Shown here piece after piece: positions 12,139 through 53,875 of a stretch of 64,000 bases of DNA. The translations under genes and the position numbers were made by a program. The stretch comes from a virus. The notes under the pieces are model-generated. The model saw only the letters and a program-made list of their open reading frames with translations. It ran no database searches and was not told the DNA's origin. The stretch lies in IMG/VR virus record IMGVR_UViG_3300036818_000105, positions 1 through 64,000 of that record. One strand, written 5' to 3'. Within the stretch, counting starts at the first letter, position 1; each line of letters opens with the position of its first letter.

Positions 12139-13335
12139 TCAGATGACGCCCATGCGCCATGCCAGCCCCCGCAGGTCCCGGCCCCCCGCGTCGTCGAGCA
12201 TCTGCCGGACCAGGTCCCGGACCAGCGGCGAGTTGCGCACCTGCGCGGGTGACAGCCGCTCCGCCGCCCGCAGTTCCGTGACCGCCTCCCGCGTCTTGCC
12301 GCCGAGCATGACGTAGGCGCGGGCCTTCTCCATCCGCAGCGCGGCCCGCCGGTTGCCCGAGGCGAGCGCGCGCGGCTCGGCCGCCGACGCGTACTCCAGC
12401 GCCTTCTCCGCGTTGCCCGCCTCAACGGCCAGGGACGTGAGCCACACCGCCGTGTTGGAGGGCCCGAAAAGCTCCCACGCGTCCGGCCGGTCCTCCATCC
12501 AGCACGCGGCCTTCGCCGCCTCGGCGCCGTGCCCCGCGGCCCCGCCGTGGTCGCCGCTGACCGCGCAGGCCAGGGCGGCGGACAGGCGGAGCATCCCGTA
12601 GACCTCGCGGGCGAGCAGCGACTGCCCCGCGAGCGGCTCCATCGCGTCGGCCGCCGCGGGCATGGCCATCAGCGCCCGCGGCCGGTTCGCCGAGCTGCGC
12701 GCGTGCGCCGCCGCGAACGCCGCCGCGCCCCGCCACACCGGGTCGCCGAGCAGTGCCGCCGCCTCCCGGCCCCGCTCGGCAGCGACCCACGCGAGGTCGG
12801 GCTGCCCCGCGTACCGGAGGGTGATCACGGCCGACTCGGTTGCGGGGACCAGTAGCCGCAGCGCCTCCTCCCGCTCCGCGCCGCCCGCCGTGGCGGCCTG
12901 GACCTCGAGCTCGCCGATCAGCGAGGGGAGGTCGGCGATGAGGCGCGGGTAGTCCGACCAGCGGAGCGCCTTGTCGACCTGGTCGTTGAGCGCCGCCAGC
13001 CCCGCTACCGGGCGGGCCCGGATGTCGGGCGGGTCACCGGGGGAAGCGTCCAGCAGCACCTCTCGCAGCGGGGAGAGGTTCCAGGCGTGCCGTCCGGCCT
13101 GGATGCCGGGGGCGGGCTCGCCGAGCAGGGTGTCCGCGGAAACCTCCAGGGCGTCGGCGAGGTTGGCGACGTCGTACCTGTTGTCGAGCGCCGCGTGGCC
13201 GTTCTCGATCTTCGACAGCCAGCTTTTCGTGTGCCCCGCCAGCCCCGCCGCCTGCTCCAGGGAAAGCCCTTTCGCCCGGCGGGCGCGGCGAACCGTAAGC
13301 CCTATGCTGTCTCGTGCTCTGCTAGGATCGGTCAT
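12139..13335 (-). CDS. XRE regulator with helical-repeat sensor domain
   Basis: 398 residues. Residues 9-70 are an XRE helix-turn-helix (GLTVRRARRAKGLSLEQAAG, then TKSWLSKIENG and LADALEVSADTLL). Residues 90-398 are tandem helices (LAWVAAERGREAAALLGDPV; SLLAREVYGMLRLSAALACA; EAGNAEKALEYASAAEPRAL) like the TPR-type sensor regions of Streptomyces XRE regulators. Such proteins often pair with a DUF397 protein; none is adjacent. It has its own upstream region and terminator. It may be a host-type developmental regulator captured by the element or the controller of this accessory block. Confidence 0.85.
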   Translation of the reverse strand: MTDPSRARDSIGLTVRRARRAKGLSLEQAAGLAGHTKSWLSKIENGHAALDNRYDVANLADALEVSADTLLGEPAPGIQAGRHAWNLSPLREVLLDASPGDPPDIRARPVAGLAALNDQVDKALRWSDYPRLIADLPSLIGELEVQAATAGGAEREEALRLLVPATESAVITLRYAGQPDLAWVAAERGREAAALLGDPVWRGAAAFAAAHARSSANRPRALMAMPAAADAMEPLAGQSLLAREVYGMLRLSAALACAVSGDHGGAAGHGAEAAKAACWMEDRPDAWELFGPSNTAVWLTSLAVEAGNAEKALEYASAAEPRALASGNRRAALRMEKARAYVMLGGKTREAVTELRAAERLSPAQVRNSPLVRDLVRQMLDDAGGRDLRGLAWRMGVI

Positions 13336-14860: not shown

Positions 14861-15208
14861 TCACGCCGGCACCTCGATCCCCTGTGCCGCCGCGCACGGC
14901 GCGCACAGGGGGACGTCGACCGGGCCGAGCGCCGGCGAGTCGTAACGCCTGGAGGTCACCGCGTCCATGGTGCAGATGCCCTTAGCCTCCGGGTGGGCGT
15001 GGCCGCAGAGGCAGTGGCACGGCCGGTACTCGCGCAGCGCCTTGCCGAACTCCCGCGCCGCGACCGCCGCGCGCACCTGAGGGTCGTCGGCCAGTTCCGC
15101 GGCGGAGCGGACGATCGGGCCGAGGCGGCCGAGGTAGGCCGCCACGGCGTTGCCCCAGGCGTCGACCAGGCGGATCGCGAACTCCTCCGGGTCGTCAGGC
15201 TCGCTCAC
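14861..15208 (-). CDS. Hypothetical Cys-rich protein, 115 aa
   Basis: GTG 15208 overlaps the upstream stop; the start at 15298 would overlap by 90 bases. It contains YRPCHCLCGHAHPEAKGIC and PLCAPCAAA, likely a zinc-binding pair set. Two-gene unit with the Clp-N protein. Confidence 0.65.
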   Translation of the reverse strand: MSEPDDPEEFAIRLVDAWGNAVAAYLGRLGPIVRSAAELADDPQVRAAVAAREFGKALREYRPCHCLCGHAHPEAKGICTMDAVTSRRYDSPALGPVDVPLCAPCAAAQGIEVPA

Positions 15209-15873
15209 CGTGCCTTCGCCTCGGGGACGGCCTGCCCGCACGCGTGGCACCTGCCCGACCTGCGGTCGATCTCCCGCTCGACCTCGCGCCTGATCCACGA
15301 GCTGACTTCCATGCCCTCGGCGGCCGCGACCTGCTTTGCCGCGGCGGCGAGGGCGACCGGGAACCTGACCGACACGTGCTCGCTCAGCGGCCCGGGTGCC
15401 CGCGTCTCCGTCTCCGCGTGGCCGCGCAGCAGTTCCAGTACCTTCGCCCGGACGTCGTCGAGGGTGAACTCCTCCTCGGCCGCCATGCCGATGTCGGCCA
15501 GCGCCTGCGCGCCCTCGGAGTTGTCGGCGTCGCGGATCAGGGCGAGGAGCAGGTGCTCCGTCGCCACGTAGTTGCAGCCGAGCTGCAGGGACTCGCGGAG
15601 GGCAAGCTCAGCGACCTTCCTGAAGCGCGCGGTCCACGGGAGCCACCCCGCGGACGGCCTGCTGCCCGGACGGTGGCACCGCCAGACGGCCTCACCCGCC
15701 GCCTTGTCCGTGACCCCGAGCGCGCCCAGCGCCTGGAAGGCCACCCCGCCGCCCTCGCCGATCAGGCCGAGCAAGAGGTGATCAGTCCCAACGGCATCGT
15801 GGCCCAGGCCGGCCGCCTCCCCCTGGGCTAGCTCGACGGCGCGCTTGGCGCGGTCGGTGTATCGCTCGAACAT
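15205..15873 (-). CDS. Clp N-domain protein fused to an RHH-like segment
   Basis: 222 residues. Residues 1-145 are a double Clp_N repeat: MFERYTDRAKRAVELAQGEA and DHLLLGLIGEGGGVA, then RFRKVAELALRESLQLGCNY and TEHLLLALIRDADNSEGAQA. This is the substrate/adaptor domain of ClpC/ClpA but without any AAA+ module. Residues 165-205 (SEHVSVRFPVALAAAAKQVA then SSWIRREVEREIDR) read as a ribbon-helix-helix, and a C-x2-C end (CHACGQ) follows. Known stand-alone Clp-N proteins (ClpS-like or regulators) exist in actinomycetes. A role in redirecting the host Clp protease or as a DNA-binding regulator turned over by Clp are both possible. Confidence 0.72.
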   Translation of the reverse strand: MFERYTDRAKRAVELAQGEAAGLGHDAVGTDHLLLGLIGEGGGVAFQALGALGVTDKAAGEAVWRCHRPGSRPSAGWLPWTARFRKVAELALRESLQLGCNYVATEHLLLALIRDADNSEGAQALADIGMAAEEEFTLDDVRAKVLELLRGHAETETRAPGPLSEHVSVRFPVALAAAAKQVAAAEGMEVSSWIRREVEREIDRRSGRCHACGQAVPEAKAR

Positions 15874-34066: not shown

Positions 34067-34129
34067 GGGCAGGCTCCTTGTGGGGCGCGCGGGGAAGGCG
34101 GGTTGTCTTGGGCATCAGCCTAATCCCGT

Positions 34130-34162
34130 GCACGTGCTAATGCACGCGACGTCTGCACGTGC
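34130..34162. repeat. GCACGTGC motif pair, 25-bp step
   Basis: GCACGTGC at 34130 and 34155, with GCACGC at 34142 between. In the 137-base region between the lysis cassette and the 34204 gene. Same arrangement at 46197, 53814 and partly at 13468. Confidence 0.65.
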
Positions 34163-35106: not shown

Positions 35107-35394
35107 TCAGATCAGGCGACCGCACCTCGTGCAGAATGAGCCGGGCGGGATGCGGTGCTCGCACGGGGCCTCGCTGGCGGGCTCGGCCGCGCCCGTGCCG
35201 ACGTCCGTGTGCGCCGTGCTGGCCACGGGCTGGCCATCCCGGTCAAAGCGGCTGAGTTCAGCATCAATGGCGCCCTCGACCCAGACTGACCGGGGCGTCT
35301 CGCCGCGCGCCTTGTCGATCGCTTCCGCCTTCGGCTCGCTTACGCGGACCGGGATGACAACTCGCTTGCCCTCAGGGGTCCGTTCTCTCGCCAT
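35107..35394 (-). CDS. Ribbon-helix-helix regulator with zinc-ribbon end, 95 aa
   Basis: RVVIPVRVSEPKAEAIDKAR then GETPRSVWVEGAIDAELSRF is an RHH fold; CEHRIPPGSFCTRCGRLI at the end is a C/H-type metal site. ATG lies 6 bases from the -10 TATACT on the minus strand, which is half of the palindrome at 35401. The same palindrome serves tnpB on the other side, so this protein probably regulates both. Confidence 0.72.
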   Translation of the reverse strand: MARERTPEGKRVVIPVRVSEPKAEAIDKARGETPRSVWVEGAIDAELSRFDRDGQPVASTAHTDVGTGAAEPASEAPCEHRIPPGSFCTRCGRLI

Positions 35395-35400
35395 GGAAGG

Positions 35401-35416
35401 AGTATACGCGTATACT
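35401..35416. promoter_or_regulatory. Perfect 16-bp palindrome between RHH and tnpB genes
   Basis: AGTATACGCGTATACT. Each half contains TATACT, a good -10 box: one 6 bases before the tnpB GTG, the other 6 bases before the RHH ATG. Two divergent leaderless promoters thus share one operator. Confidence 0.7.
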
Positions 35417-35422
35417 GATTGA

Positions 35423-36685
35423 GTGACTATACGGAACCGGCTATACCCCGACGCACGGGCGGAAGCGATCATGCGCGACCTGCACTGTGCGCAAGCCCGG
35501 TACGTGTGGAACCTCTGCGTCGAGCAGGAATCCTGGTGGCGGCGGGACCGCGGGAAGATGCCAACCTGGGTAGAGCGATGCCGCCAGTTGGCTGAGGCGC
35601 GGACTGAGTTTGAGTGGCTTCGCGCGGGCAGTAATGCAGTCCAGCAGCAGGCCATCAGGGACTTCGGACGGGCGATGACCGCCTTCCTTGATCCGAAGAA
35701 CCCGGCTAGAGAGCCAACGTTCCGGAAGGCGGTCCGCGATGAAGGATTTCGCATCGTCGGGGAGCGATCGGGACCGCACGTTTCCTGGGGCCTTCGGCGC
35801 CTGAACCGCAATTGGGGCGAGGTCCGCATCCCGAAGGTCGGCTGGGTCCGCTTCCGCTGGTCTAGGCCAGTTCCGGGAGATGTGAAGTCCTTCCGGGTCA
35901 CCCTTGACCGCGCAGGCCGATGGCACGTCTCGTTTCCGTCTCCGCAGGGCGCCGTCGGCCGTCGGCCGACCGGGGCGGCCGTCGGCATTGACCGGGGCGT
36001 CCGAACTGCCCTGGTCACCTCAGAAGGCCAGCATTTCCGAGTGCCCAGAATTGGCGACCGTGCTGCAGGGCGGTACGTCGCCCTGCAGCGGCGCATGTCC
36101 CGCCAGCAGAAGGGCTCGCGCAAGAGGGAGAAAACCCGGCTGGCAATGGCCCGGATCGCGGTAAGGGTTGCCGACCGGCGCAAGGACTGGGCAGAGAAGG
36201 TCTCCACGCGACTTGTTAGCGACTACGACCTGATCGTGTTCGAAAAGCTGAACGTGGTCCGCATGACTCGCAAGTCTGCACCCAAGTCCGATCCTGATCA
36301 GGTCGGTGCATTCCTTCCCAACAAGGCCCGCGCGAAGGCTGGGCTGAACCGAGGCATCCTCGCGGCATGCTGGGGCATTCTGGCCGCCCGTGCCGAGGAG
36401 AAGGCTGTCGCATCAGGCGTGAGTGTCATCTACGTCAACCCGAGATTCACCTCGCAGCAGTGCCATGCGTGCGGCCACGTGAGCCGGAAGAACCGCGAGA
36501 GCCAAGCGGTATTCCGGTGTGAGTCCTGTGGCCACCATGATCATGCTGACGCGAACGCTGCGAAGAACGTACTTGCCCGGGGGCTAGGCACAATGGCGGT
36601 CCCTGCGCACGCCCCGGGTCACGGGGTGCAACGCCCGCATAAGTCCGCGAGAGCGGCGGCGGGAACCACCCGGAGTGCGACATAA
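35423..36685 (+). CDS. tnpB: IS605-family TnpB RNA-guided nuclease
   Basis: 420 residues. RuvC catalytic residues are present: D190 (AAVGIDRG), E274 (LIVFEKLNVV) and D376 (HADANAAKN). The four-Cys zinc finger is CHACGHVSRK and FRCESCGHH. Length is normal for TnpB. No TnpA (Y1 or serine recombinase) is nearby, so the element cannot move by itself. The right end with its hairpins follows at 36671-36729. TnpB proteins cut DNA at the element's donor site guided by an omega RNA made from this 3-prime region. GTG start chosen because it is the first start after the -10. Confidence 0.9.
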   Translation: MTIRNRLYPDARAEAIMRDLHCAQARYVWNLCVEQESWWRRDRGKMPTWVERCRQLAEARTEFEWLRAGSNAVQQQAIRDFGRAMTAFLDPKNPAREPTFRKAVRDEGFRIVGERSGPHVSWGLRRLNRNWGEVRIPKVGWVRFRWSRPVPGDVKSFRVTLDRAGRWHVSFPSPQGAVGRRPTGAAVGIDRGVRTALVTSEGQHFRVPRIGDRAAGRYVALQRRMSRQQKGSRKREKTRLAMARIAVRVADRRKDWAEKVSTRLVSDYDLIVFEKLNVVRMTRKSAPKSDPDQVGAFLPNKARAKAGLNRGILAACWGILAARAEEKAVASGVSVIYVNPRFTSQQCHACGHVSRKNRESQAVFRCESCGHHDHADANAAKNVLARGLGTMAVPAHAPGHGVQRPHKSARAAAGTTRSAT

Positions 36686-41158: not shown

Positions 41159-41659
41159 GTGGACTTCAACGACGACAGCTTTACGAGGCTGGTCGGCGGG
41201 GCGGTAAAGCTCGCCTGCCCGTTCGCGGACGAGGTCACCACCTACTCCGGGACAGGCTTCGTCACCCTTGACAGCGGGCAGGTGTTCCGCTTCGAGGTCA
41301 GGGAGGTGACCCCGGAGGACGCGGCCGGCGAGTCCGCCGCGTGGCCCGAGGATTCCGAAGCGCCCCCGGGTAATTCCGGGCCGGCCTTGGACGACGACCT
41401 CAGGACGCCGTGGCAGGCTGACCGCGACAAGGCCGAGCGAGCCGGCAAGTGGCCGGAGTCGTGGGGGCCGTTCCACCGTCACTTCGCCAGTGACGCGGTC
41501 CACCGGGACGGGGGCCCCGAGTGCGACCAGCCGGGGACGCCGCGCCGGGTCTACCTGTTCGACCCCGATTACCTCCGCGAGCACGAGATAGCGGTTGCCC
41601 GGTACGCCATCGCCCACCCGGAGGAGTTCATGCCTGAAGGAGGCACCGATGCGACGTGA
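41159..41659 (+). CDS. Hypothetical protein, 166 aa (duplicated family)
   Basis: GTG start. Its second half (TPWQADRDKAERAGKWPESW, then FHRHFASDAVHRDGGPECDQ) is nearly identical to the 51260-51550 protein; 120 bp of DNA are the same. The N-terminal half (GGAVKLACPFADEVTTYSG) is not in that copy. Unknown. Confidence 0.65.
   Translation: MDFNDDSFTRLVGGAVKLACPFADEVTTYSGTGFVTLDSGQVFRFEVREVTPEDAAGESAAWPEDSEAPPGNSGPALDDDLRTPWQADRDKAERAGKWPESWGPFHRHFASDAVHRDGGPECDQPGTPRRVYLFDPDYLREHEIAVARYAIAHPEEFMPEGGTDAT
41435..41554 (+). repeat. 120-bp exact inverted duplication, copy 1
   Basis: Identical, base for base by my reading, to the reverse complement of 51362-51481. Flanking sequences are only similar. 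Both copies are coding in the same reading frame of paralogous genes. Confidence 0.8.
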
Positions 41660-45102: not shown

Positions 45103-45379
45103 ACGCATGGCCCTTGCAGTGACATCCGACGGCCGCCGGTACGCCGCGCCCGGCTTCAACCATGAGGCGCACGACCGCTGGGTACTGGCGGGGAACTGCC
45201 CTGTCATCAGCGTGGCGAAGTCGTGGTGCGACAAGAAGGCCGGGCATGACGGCCGCCACGGGTCGCCTCTCGTGCTTCCGCCGGGACCTGGCGAGGTACC
45301 AGGGGGCGCGCTGCTGCCGGGCAAGCCTGAACCCGGCATGCGGCCGTCCCCCGTCCGCTACGTCGAATGGGACTGGTGA
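45095..45379 (+). CDS. Hypothetical protein, 94 aa
   Basis: GTG start. GNCPVISVAKSWCDKKAGHD with H-rich end (GRHGS), then a Pro/Gly tail and RYVEWDW. Unknown. Confidence 0.58.
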   Translation: MNERMALAVTSDGRRYAAPGFNHEAHDRWVLAGNCPVISVAKSWCDKKAGHDGRHGSPLVLPPGPGEVPGGALLPGKPEPGMRPSPVRYVEWDW

Positions 45380-45864
45380 TGGCGCACGAGATCGTGATCC
45401 GCCTTGGCCGCCCGTTCGGCGTGCAGACGGACCACGGCGCGTTCCTCGCTGGCGTCCGCGAGATAACGATCCCGTTCGCCGACCGGGAGTCCGCTGAGGC
45501 CGCCCAGCGCGAGGTCGGGGTGTTCGTCCGGGAGGTGCACGACGCTGGCGGGGAGGACTACCTGCCTGTAGTAGCGGGCGAGGTGGTGCCGGAAGATTTC
45601 GAGCGGGTGCTCAGGGAGCAGGCGGGGCAGATGCGCGCCTCGATCCTCGCACCCAAGCCCGACCTCGGCGACGTGCGCGGCGACCTGGCCCGCGACATGC
45701 GCGACCTGCGGGAGCTGGACGAGATCAACGCGATCATCCCGCTTCCCGCCCGCTGCCCCGCCTGCGGGATACGCGACGACGTGCCGATGGACAGTTCCCC
45801 GCTGCCGGAGACTGACGACGAGGCCCGCAGTTACTGCACTACCTGCGGAAGGCGGGTGGACTGA
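45379..45864 (+). CDS. Hypothetical zinc-ribbon protein, 161 aa
   Basis: ATG 45379 shares one base with the TGA before it. EIVIRLGRPFGVQTDHGAFL, helices, and RCPACGIRDDVPM with YCTTCGRRVD at the end, a four-Cys ribbon. Last gene of the plus-strand small-gene block. Unknown. Confidence 0.65.
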   Translation: MAHEIVIRLGRPFGVQTDHGAFLAGVREITIPFADRESAEAAQREVGVFVREVHDAGGEDYLPVVAGEVVPEDFERVLREQAGQMRASILAPKPDLGDVRGDLARDMRDLRELDEINAIIPLPARCPACGIRDDVPMDSSPLPETDDEARSYCTTCGRRVD

Positions 45865-45867
45865 CGG

Positions 45868-46182
45868 CTACGAGCCGCCCATCTTCGGTCCGCAGGCGAT
45901 GCCCGCATTGGCCCACATGACCGCGGCGCGGACGTGCCTGAGCGCCTCGTCCCGCTCTACGCCCTCGGGCACCTCGTCAACGATCAGCTCGGCTAGCTCC
46001 CGTCCGCCCTTGCGGATCTCCTGGTAGACCGCCACCTCGCCCGGCCCTGACGGCGGGTGGTGCGTGAACCAGTTCTCTAGCTGCTGGCCCTGCTCTGACA
46101 TCGCGCCTCGCCCTCCTGGCCTGATTACCCACTTGCGGTCAATTCTGAAGGCGGTGATCGGCCCGTACCGGACCTCAGCCAT
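45868..46182 (-). CDS. Acb2/Tad1-hairpin-like anti-CBASS protein
   Basis: 104 residues; ATG 46182 follows GAGGGAGGCGGG, so the GTG at 46200 is not needed. The C-terminal 77 residues match the Acb2/Tad1 hairpin domain: NWFTHHPPSGPGEVAVYQEI, RKGGRELAELIVDEVPEG, and DEALRHVRAAVMWANAGIAC, with the family marks HHPP, Y-x2-IR, and EAVMWANAAIA. Acb2 of phage PaMx33 binds cyclic di- and trinucleotides and so blocks CBASS signalling; Tad1 does this for Thoeris. An extra 27 residues lie in front (VRYGPITAFRIDRKWVIRPG). It is the only minus-strand gene between two plus blocks and next to the motif at 46197. Ligand specificity cannot be told. Confidence 0.8.
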   Translation of the reverse strand: MAEVRYGPITAFRIDRKWVIRPGGRGAMSEQGQQLENWFTHHPPSGPGEVAVYQEIRKGGRELAELIVDEVPEGVERDEALRHVRAAVMWANAGIACGPKMGGS

Positions 46183-46196
46183 CCCGCCTCCCTCGT

Positions 46197-46229
46197 GCAC
46201 GTGCAGGCATCTCGTGCATTGGCACGTGC
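46197..46229. repeat. GCACGTGC motif pair, 25-bp step
   Basis: GCACGTGC at 46197 and 46222 between the divergent Acb2-like gene and the 46249 gene. Best match to the 34130 site in spacing. Confidence 0.65.
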
Positions 46230-46248
46230 ATGCGGCATCATAGGGGAC

Positions 46249-47484: not shown

Positions 47485-48078
47485 ATGACCACGCAAACAC
47501 CCCGCAGCCGCGGCGGCAACGGCAAGTTCACCCGCGCCGCCGAGAGCCGCAAGCGCGACTGCCGTGCCGCCGAGCTCCACGGGCAGGGCTGGTCCTACCA
47601 GCGGATCGCCGACGAGCTCGGGTTCGCGTCCAAGGGCCACGCGCACAACGGCGTGATGCGCGCCTACGCCGACATGTGCACCGAGGAGGCGGGGCAGGCC
47701 CGGCAGGCCGACCTTGACCGCATCGACCGGCTCATCGAGCAGGCGTGGCAGGTGATGCTGACCCCGCACCTGACCGTGAACAACGGCAAGGTCATCCGCC
47801 ACTTCGCGGGCTTCGAGCGCGACGAGGACGGCATCGAGCGCCTCGACATGGACGGCAAGCCGATCCCGGTCTTCGTGGACGTGCTCGACGACGGCCCGAG
47901 GCTCGCCGCGGTCGGCGTCATCAAGGGGCTGCTCGAGCGCCGGGCGAGGATCTTCGGCTACGACGCCCCCGCCAAGTCCCGCGTCGAGGTGATCACGGCC
48001 GACATGGTCGAGTCGCAGATCGCCGACCTCGAGTCCCAACTGGCCCGCAATGACCCCGCTGGTCCAGGCACCCCCTGA
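47485..48078 (+). CDS. Terminase small subunit
   Basis: 197 residues. A basic start, then a helix-turn-helix: AAELHGQGWSYQRIADELGF then ASKGHAHNGVMRAYADMCTE, as in phage small terminases that bind the packaging site. A helical middle (ADLDRIDRLIEQAWQVMLTP) serves oligomerisation. Overlaps terL by 29 bases. Placement before terL makes the call likely. Confidence 0.78.
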   Translation: MTTQTPRSRGGNGKFTRAAESRKRDCRAAELHGQGWSYQRIADELGFASKGHAHNGVMRAYADMCTEEAGQARQADLDRIDRLIEQAWQVMLTPHLTVNNGKVIRHFAGFERDEDGIERLDMDGKPIPVFVDVLDDGPRLAAVGVIKGLLERRARIFGYDAPAKSRVEVITADMVESQIADLESQLARNDPAGPGTP

Positions 48079-50818
48079 CCGCCTGCGGTACCTGCTGGAG
48101 CTCCAGCGCCGCGCCGCGAGGATCAAGCACGGGATCACCAGGTACTACGACGACCCGGTCGGCTTCGCGCGTGACTGCATCGACTGGGGCGACAGCGAGG
48201 GCCTGACCGAGTACCAGGAGGAGATCCTCGACGGGATTCCCCGCCGCAAGCGCGTCGCGGTACGAGGCCCCCACGGGCTCGGCAAGGCGCTAGAATTGAG
48301 TGTGCGCATACCCACCCCTTCCGGCTGGTCGACCATCGGCGGCCTGCGCGTCGGCGACGAGGTTTTCGACGAGCACGGCAAGCCCTGCCGGGTGACGGGC
48401 AAGTCGCCCGTATGGCACGGCGACACGTACGAAGTCGAGTTTGCGGACAAGACCGTCATCACCGCTCACGGCGAGCACGAGTGGAACGCAGTCGACGTCT
48501 ACCACCGCCCGAAGACACCGAAGCCAGACCGGCGGCCTGTGCCCGTTTCGGACTGGCGCGACCACTGGGTATCGACTAGGCGCGTCACTACCGCGTACAT
48601 GGCGGAGCACATGCTCTCGCCTGGCGGTCAGCTTCGGTGGCGCATCCCGGCAGCACGCCCGCTGGAGCTACGTGCCGCCGACCTGCCGGTTGACCCGTAC
48701 ATCCTTGGGTACTGGCTCGGTGACGGATCGTCGAGGGGCGCCCAGATAACGATCTGCGCCAGCGACTGGCCGAGCCTGCAAGAGCGCCTGAAGGATGCCG
48801 GGTATCACCATGGCGAGCCCCGGCCGCATAAGGCCAGCCCGTCAACCTTCTCAGTGGGCGTCTCCACGCAGCCGGTGCGCCGTGGCGGCGGCCAGCATGA
48901 CACGCTGGCGCTCAGGCTCCGCAATCTCGGCGTCCTCGGCAATAAGCACATCCCGGTGATCTACCAGCGGGCATCCGCGGCGCAGCGCATGGAGGTTGTG
49001 CGCGGACTGTGGGACTCGGACGGCTACCGGCAGGCTGGCGGCAGCGACGAGATCACGCTCACCTGCAAGCCGCTAGCGGATGACGTAGCTGAGCTGCTGC
49101 GGTCTCTCGGCCTGGTGGTCCGGGTAAGCGAAAGCGACTCCAAGATTGACGGGCGCGTGGTCGGCCGCAGGTGGCGCATCGCCGCCCGGTTCGACTTCAA
49201 CCCCTACCGTCTTGCGCGCTACGACTGGGAGCCCCGCGGCCGGCAGTCCTCTCGCCACACCCAGCGGACGATCACGGATATCCGCAGGGTGGCCGACAAG
49301 CCGACCCAGTGCATCGAGGTGGACTCGCCGTCGCACCTGTACCTCGCTGGCGACTCAATGATCCCGACGCACAACTCCGGGATAGCGGCCATCGCCGTCC
49401 ACTGGTTCGCCCTGACGCGGGACGCGGCCGGCGTCGACTGGAAGATCCCTGCGACCGCCGGGTCATGGCACCAGCTGACCCAGTACCTGTTCCCTGAGAT
49501 CCACAAGTGGGCCGGGCGCCTGCGATGGGACAAGGTGCGGGACGGCCGCCCGTTCTCCCGCGCGCACGAGCTCCAGAACCTGAACCTGCGCCTGGCGCAC
49601 GGCTCCGCCTTCGCGGGGGCATCGGCGAACGCGGCGCTGATCGAGGGCGCGCACGCCGACTCGCTGCTGTTCCTGTTCGACGAGGGAAAGGCCATCCCGG
49701 CCGCCACGTTCGACGCATGTGAGGGCGCCCTCGGCGGCACGGGCGAGGCCTTCGCCCTGATCCTGTCAACGCCGGGGGCACCGTCAGGGCGCTTCTACGA
49801 CATCTGCGCGCGCAAGCCCGGCTACGAGGACTGGCACCCTGTCCACGTCACCCTCGAGCGCGCGATCGCCGCCGGGCGCATCAGCGAGGAGTGGGCTGAG
49901 CAGCGCGCCCGTCAGTGGGGCACCGAGTCGGCGATCTACCAGAACCGCGTCCTGGGCGAGTTCTACGCCAGTGACGAGGACTCGGTTATCCCCCTCGCGT
50001 GGGCGGAGGCGGCGGTTGCCCGCTGGCACGCCTGGGACGAGGCCGGGCGTCCGGAACCGGGCAGGCCGCGCACGGTTGGCGTGGACGTGGCCCGCACCGG
50101 CCAGGACCGCACGGTCCTCGCCCTCCGCAACGGCCCGGTGATCACGGAGCTGCGCCGGTCGGTGAAGGAAGACACGATGCAGACCACCGGCCGCGTGAAG
50201 GGCATCCTTGACGCCGACGACTCGGTTACCGCCGTGGTCGACGTGATCGGCATCGGCGCAGGCGTCGTTGACCGCCTCCGCGAGCAGCACGCCCGGGTGC
50301 TGGCTTTCAACGCCTCCCGCGGGTCGAAGGCGAAGGACAGCACGAGGGAGTTCGGCTTCGCGAACCGCCGGAGTGAGGCGTGGTGGACGATGAGGCAGGC
50401 GCTGGACCCGTCGAGCGACCCGGATATCTGCTTCCCTGACGACGAGATGCTGCTCGGTGACCTCTCGGCACCGCAGTGGAAAGTCACGTCATCCGGAAGG
50501 ATCGCGGTGGAGACTAAAGAGGAGATCGCCAAGCGCCTAGGCCGGTCAACTGACGACGGTGACGCGGTAATTCAGGCTTTCGTCCCGCACCTCGGCGAGT
50601 CTTCGCCGGGCACCGTCCGCAAGTGGGCCGGGTCCGTCGAGCTCGACAGCATGGGCGTGAGCGAGGAAACGAAGGCTCACCGCCGCATGAGGGAGATCGC
50701 GGGCAAGGCGGCCGAGGGACTTGAGGACGCGCCGTGGGATCTCGACGGATTCTCGCCGCAGGACGGCGATGACAGACCGCAGGGCGGGCGACGGGGCAAC
50801 GTCCGGACGTGGCAGTAG
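48050..50818 (+). CDS. terL: Terminase large subunit interrupted by a class 3 intein
   Basis: 922 residues as translated; 559 after removal of the intein (residues 80-442). The intein lies in the Walker A: extein VRGPHGLGK then SGIAAIAVHWFALTRDAAGV. Walker B is LLFLFDEGKAIP at about 545-556, with the motif III region FALILSTPGAPSGRFYD. The nuclease domain follows (VGVDVARTGQDRTVLALRNG; VTAVVDVIGIGAGVVDRL; EIAKRLGRSTDDGDAVIQ). Splicing must work for DNA packaging. ATG 48050 overlaps terS. Distance to the portal gene is unusually long because of the 50833-53658 insertion. Confidence 0.9.
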   Translation: MTPLVQAPPDRLRYLLELQRRAARIKHGITRYYDDPVGFARDCIDWGDSEGLTEYQEEILDGIPRRKRVAVRGPHGLGKALELSVRIPTPSGWSTIGGLRVGDEVFDEHGKPCRVTGKSPVWHGDTYEVEFADKTVITAHGEHEWNAVDVYHRPKTPKPDRRPVPVSDWRDHWVSTRRVTTAYMAEHMLSPGGQLRWRIPAARPLELRAADLPVDPYILGYWLGDGSSRGAQITICASDWPSLQERLKDAGYHHGEPRPHKASPSTFSVGVSTQPVRRGGGQHDTLALRLRNLGVLGNKHIPVIYQRASAAQRMEVVRGLWDSDGYRQAGGSDEITLTCKPLADDVAELLRSLGLVVRVSESDSKIDGRVVGRRWRIAARFDFNPYRLARYDWEPRGRQSSRHTQRTITDIRRVADKPTQCIEVDSPSHLYLAGDSMIPTHNSGIAAIAVHWFALTRDAAGVDWKIPATAGSWHQLTQYLFPEIHKWAGRLRWDKVRDGRPFSRAHELQNLNLRLAHGSAFAGASANAALIEGAHADSLLFLFDEGKAIPAATFDACEGALGGTGEAFALILSTPGAPSGRFYDICARKPGYEDWHPVHVTLERAIAAGRISEEWAEQRARQWGTESAIYQNRVLGEFYASDEDSVIPLAWAEAAVARWHAWDEAGRPEPGRPRTVGVDVARTGQDRTVLALRNGPVITELRRSVKEDTMQTTGRVKGILDADDSVTAVVDVIGIGAGVVDRLREQHARVLAFNASRGSKAKDSTREFGFANRRSEAWWTMRQALDPSSDPDICFPDDEMLLGDLSAPQWKVTSSGRIAVETKEEIAKRLGRSTDDGDAVIQAFVPHLGESSPGTVRKWAGSVELDSMGVSEETKAHRRMREIAGKAAEGLEDAPWDLDGFSPQDGDDRPQGGRRGNVRTWQ
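48287..49375 (+). other. Class 3 intein with LAGLIDADG homing endonuclease
   Basis: 363 residues. Starts with Ala (GLGK then ALELSVRIPTPSG) and ends SMIPTHN followed by Ser. It has the WCT triplet of class 3 inteins: W145 in GEHEW (block B), C421 in TQCIEVD (block F) and T440 in IPTHN (block G). Such inteins start splicing from the block-F Cys, not from residue 1. The LAGLIDADG-type motif is YILGYWLGDGSSRGAQI, and LWDSDGYRQAGGSDEIT may be the second. Confidence 0.88.
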
Positions 50819-51259: not shown

Positions 51260-51550
51260 TCAGGCCGGGCCCTCCCCTTCCGCCGCGAACTGCTCCGGGT
51301 GGGCGATGGCGTACCGGGCCACTATCAGCTCGTGCTCGCTCAGGTATTCAGGGTCAAAGACGTAGACCCGGCGCGGCGTCCCCGGCTGGTCGCACTCGGG
51401 GCCCCCGTCCCGGTGGACCGCGTCACTGGCGAAGTGACGGTGGAACGGCCCCCACGACTCCGGCCACTTGCCGGCTCGCTCAGCCTTGTCGCGGTCGGCC
51501 TCCCACGGCGTGCGGGTGTCCTGGTCGTCCTCTGGGTCCGGGGTGCTCAT
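51260..51550 (-). CDS. Hypothetical protein, 96 aa (paralog of 41159)
   Basis: Nearly identical to the second half of the 41159-41659 product. Begins MSTPDPEDDQDTRTPW. ATG 51550 overlaps the upstream stop. Confidence 0.68.
   Translation of the reverse strand: MSTPDPEDDQDTRTPWEADRDKAERAGKWPESWGPFHRHFASDAVHRDGGPECDQPGTPRRVYVFDPEYLSEHELIVARYAIAHPEQFAAEGEGPA
51362..51481 (-). repeat. 120-bp exact inverted duplication, copy 2
   Basis: Reverse complement of 41435-41554 without a mismatch by my reading. Lies inside the paralog gene. Confidence 0.8.
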
Positions 51551-52225: not shown

Positions 52226-52471
52226 ATGACCGACGCTAGCCCGGTTGCCATCCAGCGAGCCATCGCGGCCAACATCCGAGCCGAACGCGCCCGCGCCCGG
52301 CTCTCTCAGCAGGCCGTGGCAGACGCCATGCAGAAGCGCGGGTTCGCCTACTGGCGCCAGCAGACAACCGGAGCGACCGAACGCGGCGAGCGCCGGATAA
52401 CCGCCGATGAACTGACCGCACTCGCCGCCGTATTCGGCACCGCGCCGGAGACGCTCTGGCGGATGCCGTGA
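52226..52471 (+). CDS. XRE-family regulator, 81 aa
   Basis: IAANIRAERARARLSQQAVA, then FAYWRQQTTGATERGERRIT and LTALAAVFGTAPETL: an XRE helix-turn-helix with the inserted-type third helix. It overlaps tnpB by 4 bases (GTGA), so the two are translated together. Confidence 0.8.
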   Translation: MTDASPVAIQRAIAANIRAERARARLSQQAVADAMQKRGFAYWRQQTTGATERGERRITADELTALAAVFGTAPETLWRMP

Positions 52472-53658
52472 GGCGGGCCTACAAGTTCCTCGCATACCCG
52501 ACGCGACCCCAGGAGGGCCGCTCGGGCGCGCTGCTGCGCGACCACTGCGACCTGTACGACGCCGCGCTCGAGGAACGCCGCGAGGCGTGGCGGATGCGGA
52601 AAGCTCCGGTGTCCTACGGCATGCAGTCTGCCCAGCTCAAGGAGATCCGAGCGGCCGACCCGGACGGGCAGGGGAGGCACTCGTTCACCGCCCAGCAGCA
52701 AACCCTGCGCAGGCTCAACGACGCGTTCGTTATGTTCTACAAGCGGTGCAAGATCCCGGGCAAGAAGCCGGGCTACCCGAGGTTCAAGCCGTACGCCCGG
52801 TTCGATCAGGTCCGGTTCGTCGCCGGAGACGGTGCGAAGTGGACCCCGGCGAACGGCATTGGCTGGGCACGCGCCTACTTCCAGGCGGTCGGCTCGGTCA
52901 AGGTGAAGCAGCACCGGCCGGTGACGGGCACCGTCAAGGCGCTCCAACTCAAGCGGGAGCACCGCCGCTGGTACGTCATCGTCATCACCGAAACTGAGCC
53001 GGTGCCGCTGCCCCCGGCGGGCCGTGAAGTCGGCGTAGACGTGGGGGTGGTGCGGTTCCTGACCACCTCGGACGGCGGGATCGTGGCCAATCCGCGTTTC
53101 TTCGCCGCGTCGGCCGGGGTGATCGCGGACTTGCAGCGCCGCATGAACCGCGCCAGGCCGGGTTCGGGGAACCGCAAGCGGATCAGGCGCGCCCTGGCCC
53201 GGGAGCACCGCAAGGTCAGGAACTCCCGCCGCGACTTCCACCACAAGACCGCGCGAATTCTCATTGACGAGTGTGACGTGATCGCCCTGGAAGACCTCAA
53301 CACGGAAGGGATGACCAGGCGTCCCAAACCGAAGCCCGACCCGGACAAGCCGGGCGAGCACCTCCCGAACGGGGCCGCCTCCAAGGCCGGCCTGAACAAG
53401 TCGATACGCGACGCGGGCTGGGCACAGTTCATGAGCATCATCGTCGGCAAGGCTGAGAGCGCCGGCCGGCGAGTGATCCTGGTGGACCCGCGGAACACGA
53501 GCATCGACTGTCACCAGTGCGGGCGAAGATGCGAGCGCCCGCAGCAGGACACGGTTATCTGCCCCGCGCACGGCGCGATGGACGCCGACGTGAACGGGGC
53601 CAGAAACATCGCCAGCAGGGCCGGGCTGGGCTCTGGTCAGGCCGCGCGAGCGGCCTGA
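52468..53658 (+). CDS. tnpB: Second TnpB, coupled to an XRE gene
   Basis: 396 residues. RuvC residues intact: D191 (EVGVDVGVV), E275 (VIALEDLN) and D374 (DADVNGARN). Zinc finger CHQCGRRCERP and VICPAHG (C348, C351, C365, H368). Not close to the 35423 TnpB in sequence. No tnpA nearby, and no GGATGTCAA-type right end; a GGCGG...CCGCC hairpin follows at about 53665-53680. Translation appears coupled to the XRE gene, so it could be a domesticated form or a TnpB with its own repressor. GTG start. Confidence 0.87.
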   Translation: MRRAYKFLAYPTRPQEGRSGALLRDHCDLYDAALEERREAWRMRKAPVSYGMQSAQLKEIRAADPDGQGRHSFTAQQQTLRRLNDAFVMFYKRCKIPGKKPGYPRFKPYARFDQVRFVAGDGAKWTPANGIGWARAYFQAVGSVKVKQHRPVTGTVKALQLKREHRRWYVIVITETEPVPLPPAGREVGVDVGVVRFLTTSDGGIVANPRFFAASAGVIADLQRRMNRARPGSGNRKRIRRALAREHRKVRNSRRDFHHKTARILIDECDVIALEDLNTEGMTRRPKPKPDPDKPGEHLPNGAASKAGLNKSIRDAGWAQFMSIIVGKAESAGRRVILVDPRNTSIDCHQCGRRCERPQQDTVICPAHGAMDADVNGARNIASRAGLGSGQAARAA

Positions 53659-53772: not shown

Positions 53773-53813
53773 AGCGTGACCGGCACTGCCTCCGCACGCT
53801 AGCCTGTGAGCGT

Positions 53814-53846
53814 GCACGTGCATTCGTCGCGTGCAGATGCACACGC
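53814..53846. repeat. GCACGTGC motif with 25-bp partner
   Basis: GCACGTGC at 53814 and GCACACGC at 53839, exactly 25 bases on; 30 bases before the portal-region start with its GGAGAGGAGGTGATG ribosome site. Confidence 0.55.
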
Positions 53847-53875
53847 TAGCGGCGGAGAGGAGGTGATGCTTGGGT

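Follow-up and report, generated by a model that had tools for sequence, protein, structure and literature searches.

The window analyzed here, a stretch of 64,000 nucleotides, is part of a 124,491-bp IMG/VR virus record (GC 70.7%) that encodes a Mu-type portal, plus an integrase adjoining an HTH gene. Isolated matches of the portal were mostly portals of Streptomyces phages (35–37% identity). These features identify what a sequence-only reading had called an actinomycete element as an actinophage, plausibly a temperate one. A scan of genome collections returned only four distant relatives, and a literature search found no description of this phage group. On the minus strand, an open reading frame at 45868–46182 runs without an internal stop and translates into 104 residues carrying all the family marks previously noticed (HHPP, Y-x2-IR in the form YQEIR, and AAVMWANA). 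Gene calls confirmed that this acb2-like gene stands alone on the minus strand in its stretch of the window, between two plus-strand neighbors (Table 1).

Table 1. Features of the acb2-like locus, in window coordinates.
Feature	Position	Strand	Remarks
Convergent neighbor downstream of acb2	45367..45864	+	Syntenic in L001 and L091
acb2-like gene, likeliest extent	45868..46101	-	77 aa, ATG 46099-46101; PF24729, phrog_1454, gene call, L091 start, third-position bias
In-frame upstream stretch, 81 nt	46102..46182	-	Read as a 27-aa extension; probably a leader, possibly a second start
Shine-Dalgarno AGGAGG	46112..46117	-	10 nt ahead of the ATG at 46101; read from sequence
34-bp element TGCACGTGC-N16-TGCACGTGC	46197..46230	.	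Separates acb2 from the divergent gene (46249)
Divergent gene, 150 aa	46249..46701	+	Conserved in L091, L080 and L084

Profile searches placed the predicted protein in the Acb2/Tad1 hairpin family, as the sequence-only reading had proposed. The Pfam model of the hairpin domain (PF24729) matched residues 41–97 with 46.9 bits, above its gathering cut-off of 27 bits; T4 Vs.4/Acb2, which has this domain in common with the window protein, scored 71.4 bits with the identical model. A PHROG without an assigned function, phrog_1454, matched residues 28–98 (E 5.7e-17). A profile-based scan of IMG/VR returned 460 relatives, and the family is therefore common. Judged by its sequence, the gene is a real and ordinary member of the Acb2/Tad1 hairpin family, of which hundreds are known. 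Searches of the window protein against NCBIfam and PADLOC gave no match, and phmmer against the PDB gave none either, the solved Acb2 proteins included. Profile searches of the PDB yielded weak matches to Tad1 and to "Acb2 homolog 43" only, under the ordinary threshold.

The protein had been credited with 27 extra N-terminal residues, a claim that fares poorly against related contigs. The body of the gene shows a clear signature of purifying selection: compared with its counterpart in the IMG/VR contig L001 (92% identical to the window protein in the body), differences fall 3/2/17 by codon position, a third-position bias. The first 14 upstream codons differ by 4/2/2 (contrast with the body, Fisher p 0.03; with the remaining upstream tail added after realignment by hand, p 0.002; small numbers in both cases). 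L001 has a deletion of 21 nt in this stretch, a GTG at the aligned start position and a GAGAGGG site ahead of it. In L091, a 124,995-bp contig whose protein is 50% identical, acb2 begins at the equivalent ATG with AGGAG ahead and has no N-terminal extension; upstream of that ATG the frame just reads on through the operator. A self-written gene finder based on codon usage likewise chose the start at 46101. Because codon bias is missing upstream, L001 combines a gap with its own GTG and site, and L091 starts at the same point, the 27-residue extension is probably untranslated leader DNA, with translation from Met28, which has its own AGGAGG.

Since Met1 of the 104-aa form also has a fair ribosome site (GGGAGG), a second, longer isoform possibly starts there. 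This plausible site would also serve a Tad1-like form, in which the 27 residues make a small beta-sheet before the hairpin and gcADPR is sponged as well. Tad1 (PDB 7UAV, 8KBE) carries a four-stranded beta-sheet ahead of its hairpin (PMC12043709), which the 77-aa window protein lacks, and the pattern SRE-x-x-x-AL-x-x-x-EEA-x-MW-x-N in the second hairpin helix is common to both. In the 104-aa form AF2 draws three short strands within residues 3–22. However, pLDDT is 51–65 over most of this stretch, the 21 nt missing from L001 fall inside the modeled third strand, and the extension is absent from L091. The only strands predicted ahead of the hairpin are thus of low confidence and lie in a stretch without coding signature, and we consider a Tad1-like form very improbable.

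For the 77-aa form, AF2 (single chain, alignment of 97 family sequences) predicted helices at residues 3–11, 20–43 and 48–70, with pLDDT of 87–98 across the hairpin and 60–65 in the short N-terminal helix. The prediction is a helical hairpin, a fold on which the sequence-only reading had staked its assignment, and it fits the published layout of the Acb2 protomer, a short N-terminal helix followed by two long antiparallel helices (PMC10419184; PMC12043709), as found in T4 Acb2 (Vs.4; PDB 7UQ2) and in p26, a protein of a Pseudomonas phage (PDB 8H2J, 8IXZ). In a Foldseek search against viral models, the ten best matches all had a probability of 1.00 and 8/10 were named Acb2/Tad1 hairpin proteins, at E-values of just 0.006–0.09. 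The corresponding search of the PDB was uninformative, with many unrelated helical hairpins and T4 Vs.4 only at E 4.7. Compared with the T4 and p26 proteins, the window protein is very distant in sequence, shorter at 77 aa, and encoded by a gene that stands alone beside a divergent promoter region. Acb2 assembles into a homo-hexamer that offers three sites for dinucleotides and two for trinucleotides; the window protein was modeled as a single chain. The actinophage proteins ScoobyDoobyDoo gp210, Phabba, Malthus gp5 and Daredevil gp66 carry the domain or are aligned homologues with similarly conserved ends (about 30–41% identity to the window protein where aligned). They differ from it in genome neighborhood and in having Tyr or Phe where the window protein has His; the Phabba and ScoobyDoobyDoo proteins, unlike the window protein, have long C-terminal tails. 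Statler gp57 is a further actinophage Acb2/Tad1-hairpin protein (PMC13348362).

To map the ligand pocket, T4 Vs.4 was aligned by phmmer with the Pseudomonas phage protein of known structure and then related to the window protein through the Pfam coordinates that both share; conservation was counted over 99 distinct homologues (104-aa numbering, in which His41 and Arg57 are His14 and Arg30 of the 77-aa form). The basic residue of the Acb2 pocket, K26 in the Pseudomonas protein and equivalent to T4 K23, aligns with Arg57, a conservative change; this position is Arg in 99/99 homologues, and Ala91 and Asn92, like Arg57 at the hairpin ends, are kept just as strictly (99/99). The pocket tyrosine (Y8 in T4, Y11 in p26) aligns with His41, at a position that is Tyr in 93/99, His in 4/99 and Phe in 1/99 homologues; L091 has the Tyr. 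T4 T68 corresponds to Arg82 (Arg in 60/99, Thr in 29/99), a residue that is, by these counts, common in the subfamily of the window protein, and T4 F82 corresponds to Ala96, an Ala that the solved Pseudomonas protein likewise carries. In T4 Acb2, Y8A loses dinucleotide binding (PMC12657218; PMC12657230), T68 is reported as affinity-relevant through T68M (PMC12657230), and F82 stacks on the ligand, with F82C described (PMC12657218; PMC12657230). The conservation of pocket residues, named earlier as a test of the assignment, therefore holds for the basic residue and not for the critical tyrosine.

His41 is shared by the window protein, its L001 counterpart and three further contigs of differing sequence (L110, L115 and L154), so that the change from Tyr to His recurs. 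Such recurrence would suit an Acb2-fold protein specialized for cyclic trinucleotides or another signal, with a weakened dinucleotide pocket, as would the report that the two kinds of Acb2 pocket are independent and that affinity is higher for trinucleotides (PMC12043709). However, His too can stack on bases, and the basic residue tied to the dinucleotide site is retained. We regard this specialization, a variant of the sponge explanation that overlaps with it, as possible but not likely.

Gene order points to a dispensable gene. In the window, L001/L090 and L091, acb2 sits at one spot, alone and on the opposite strand to matching flanking genes. The relatives L080 and L084 cover the spot itself and lack acb2, although both the operator and the divergent gene are present there, for which reason the gene is, as far as these genome comparisons tell, accessory cargo at a fixed syntenic spot. 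In G003, a 131,159-bp relative, neither acb2 nor a 46249-type gene was matched; the records compared, L080 and L084 among them, may be fragments. Some family relatives do lie among structural genes (portal and head genes in Quhwah, tail genes in S-2L), as would be expected of a hairpin protein that has lost sponge activity and taken a structural or regulatory role. We find this improbable, since Arg57, Ala91 and Asn92 are invariant at the hairpin ends and the gene's presence in some related phages and absence from others is easier to reconcile with accessory counter-defence than with an essential part of the virion structure. The product of the divergent gene gave a weak VIT1-like match (PF01988, E 5.5e-6, 26.8 bits, below the cut-off of 28.1). 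Roughly 25 small genes that match no named family do precede acb2 in a row, but the suggestion that they include more anti-defence functions, and with it an anti-defence island, finds no support in the family searches: among the 32 surrounding small proteins, Pfam finds DUF6221 and VIT1 only, and the four PHROGs families matched include none named anti-defence.

Because the Pfam and PHROG matches, the AF2 fold, the Foldseek matches among viral models, the invariant Arg57, selection on the gene body and the syntenic presence and absence all point the same way, we assign a probability of roughly 75% to the reading that the 77-aa product is a nucleotide sponge of the Acb2 type. Against it stand the replacements at three aligned T4 positions (His41 for Tyr, Arg82 for T68, Ala96 for F82), the lack of a phmmer match to any solved Acb2 and the poor E-value of T4 Vs.4 in the PDB search with Foldseek. 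By analogy with the solved relatives, protomers of a short helix and a long hairpin would assemble into a homo-hexamer, whose pockets would hold cyclic di- and/or trinucleotides; with the signal sequestered, CBASS or a similar signaling defence could not turn on its effector during phage growth. A counter-defence family that is already characterized would thereby be extended to these large actinophages, and the natural variant at the key tyrosine makes ligand specificity directly testable.

The operator-like site reported beside acb2 is present as a GCACGTGC pair just upstream of the gene (46197–46204 and 46222–46229) and turned out to belong to a repeated sequence: GCACGTGC is one half of the 34-bp element, which has a GTGCA half-site at its center. 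The record holds four exact copies (34129–34162, 46197, 68094/68095 and 91851/91852), against ~5e-6 expected per strand from base composition, as well as two degenerate copies (53813–53847 and 13467); by our own gene calls, 6/6 copies are intergenic. Scanning IMG/VR for the element returned 31 stretches. Most of the GC-rich ones with N16 spacing come from relatives of the window phage (among L059–L089), in which the element precedes a syntenic gene for portal, head or tail, or one of the 46249 type; the other stretches, such as L062, L067, L070 and L075 with N15 or N17 spacing, look like chance or local repeats. A ParB/parS assignment, considered for CACGTG-cored sites, was rejected, the ParB_N domain being absent from the record. 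A scan for sigma-70-type promoters around acb2 gave nothing, and the literature search found no paper on TGCACGTGCA in phages.

From its recurrence and placement, the element is probably an operator, and we infer from position that it would control acb2 together with the head, portal and tail operons. Candidate regulators include two HTH proteins, one from the gene beside the integrase (97908–98561) and one from 12139–13335. The shared operator is a less expected part of the locus than acb2 itself, and acb2, as removable cargo beside a repeated phage element, offers a route to further cargo genes and to the regulator. A more speculative proposal, which we think rather unlikely to be right in full, joins two parts: acb2 would belong to a phage-wide regulon in which a regulator binds the three-part, 34-bp element (TGCACGTGCATYCGNNNCGTGCATCTGCACGTGCA) wherever it lies at a promoter for portal, head, tail or acb2 in a group of 124–131-kb actinophages, timing counter-defence with the structural genes, and the His/Arg pocket would mark a variant sponge whose preference among ligands has shifted.

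Several other genes deserve mention. A large terminase-like gene (48050–50818) contains an apparent intein, with a LAGLIDADG domain in the window copy; the terminase-like copy in L001 (1246–3435) has a seemingly shorter insertion at a similar place. PADLOC matches of Cas12 type in the window belong to two TnpB/Cas12f-like genes (52468–53658 and 35423–36685), the former directly after a small HTH gene (52226–52471). A phage gene with a Clp N-terminal domain lies at 15205–15873. Two small genes on opposite strands (41159–41659 and 51260–51550) share a near-identical stretch (TPWEADRDKAERAGKWPESWGPFHRHFASDAVHRDGGPECDQPGTPRRVY...), which suggests a duplication. Outside this phage group, contig L050 (cyanophage S-2L, MW334946) contains an Acb2-like open reading frame at about 2528–2743 (near 35199–35402 of MW334946); it is 49% identical to the window protein, has no annotation of its own and lies amid tail genes.
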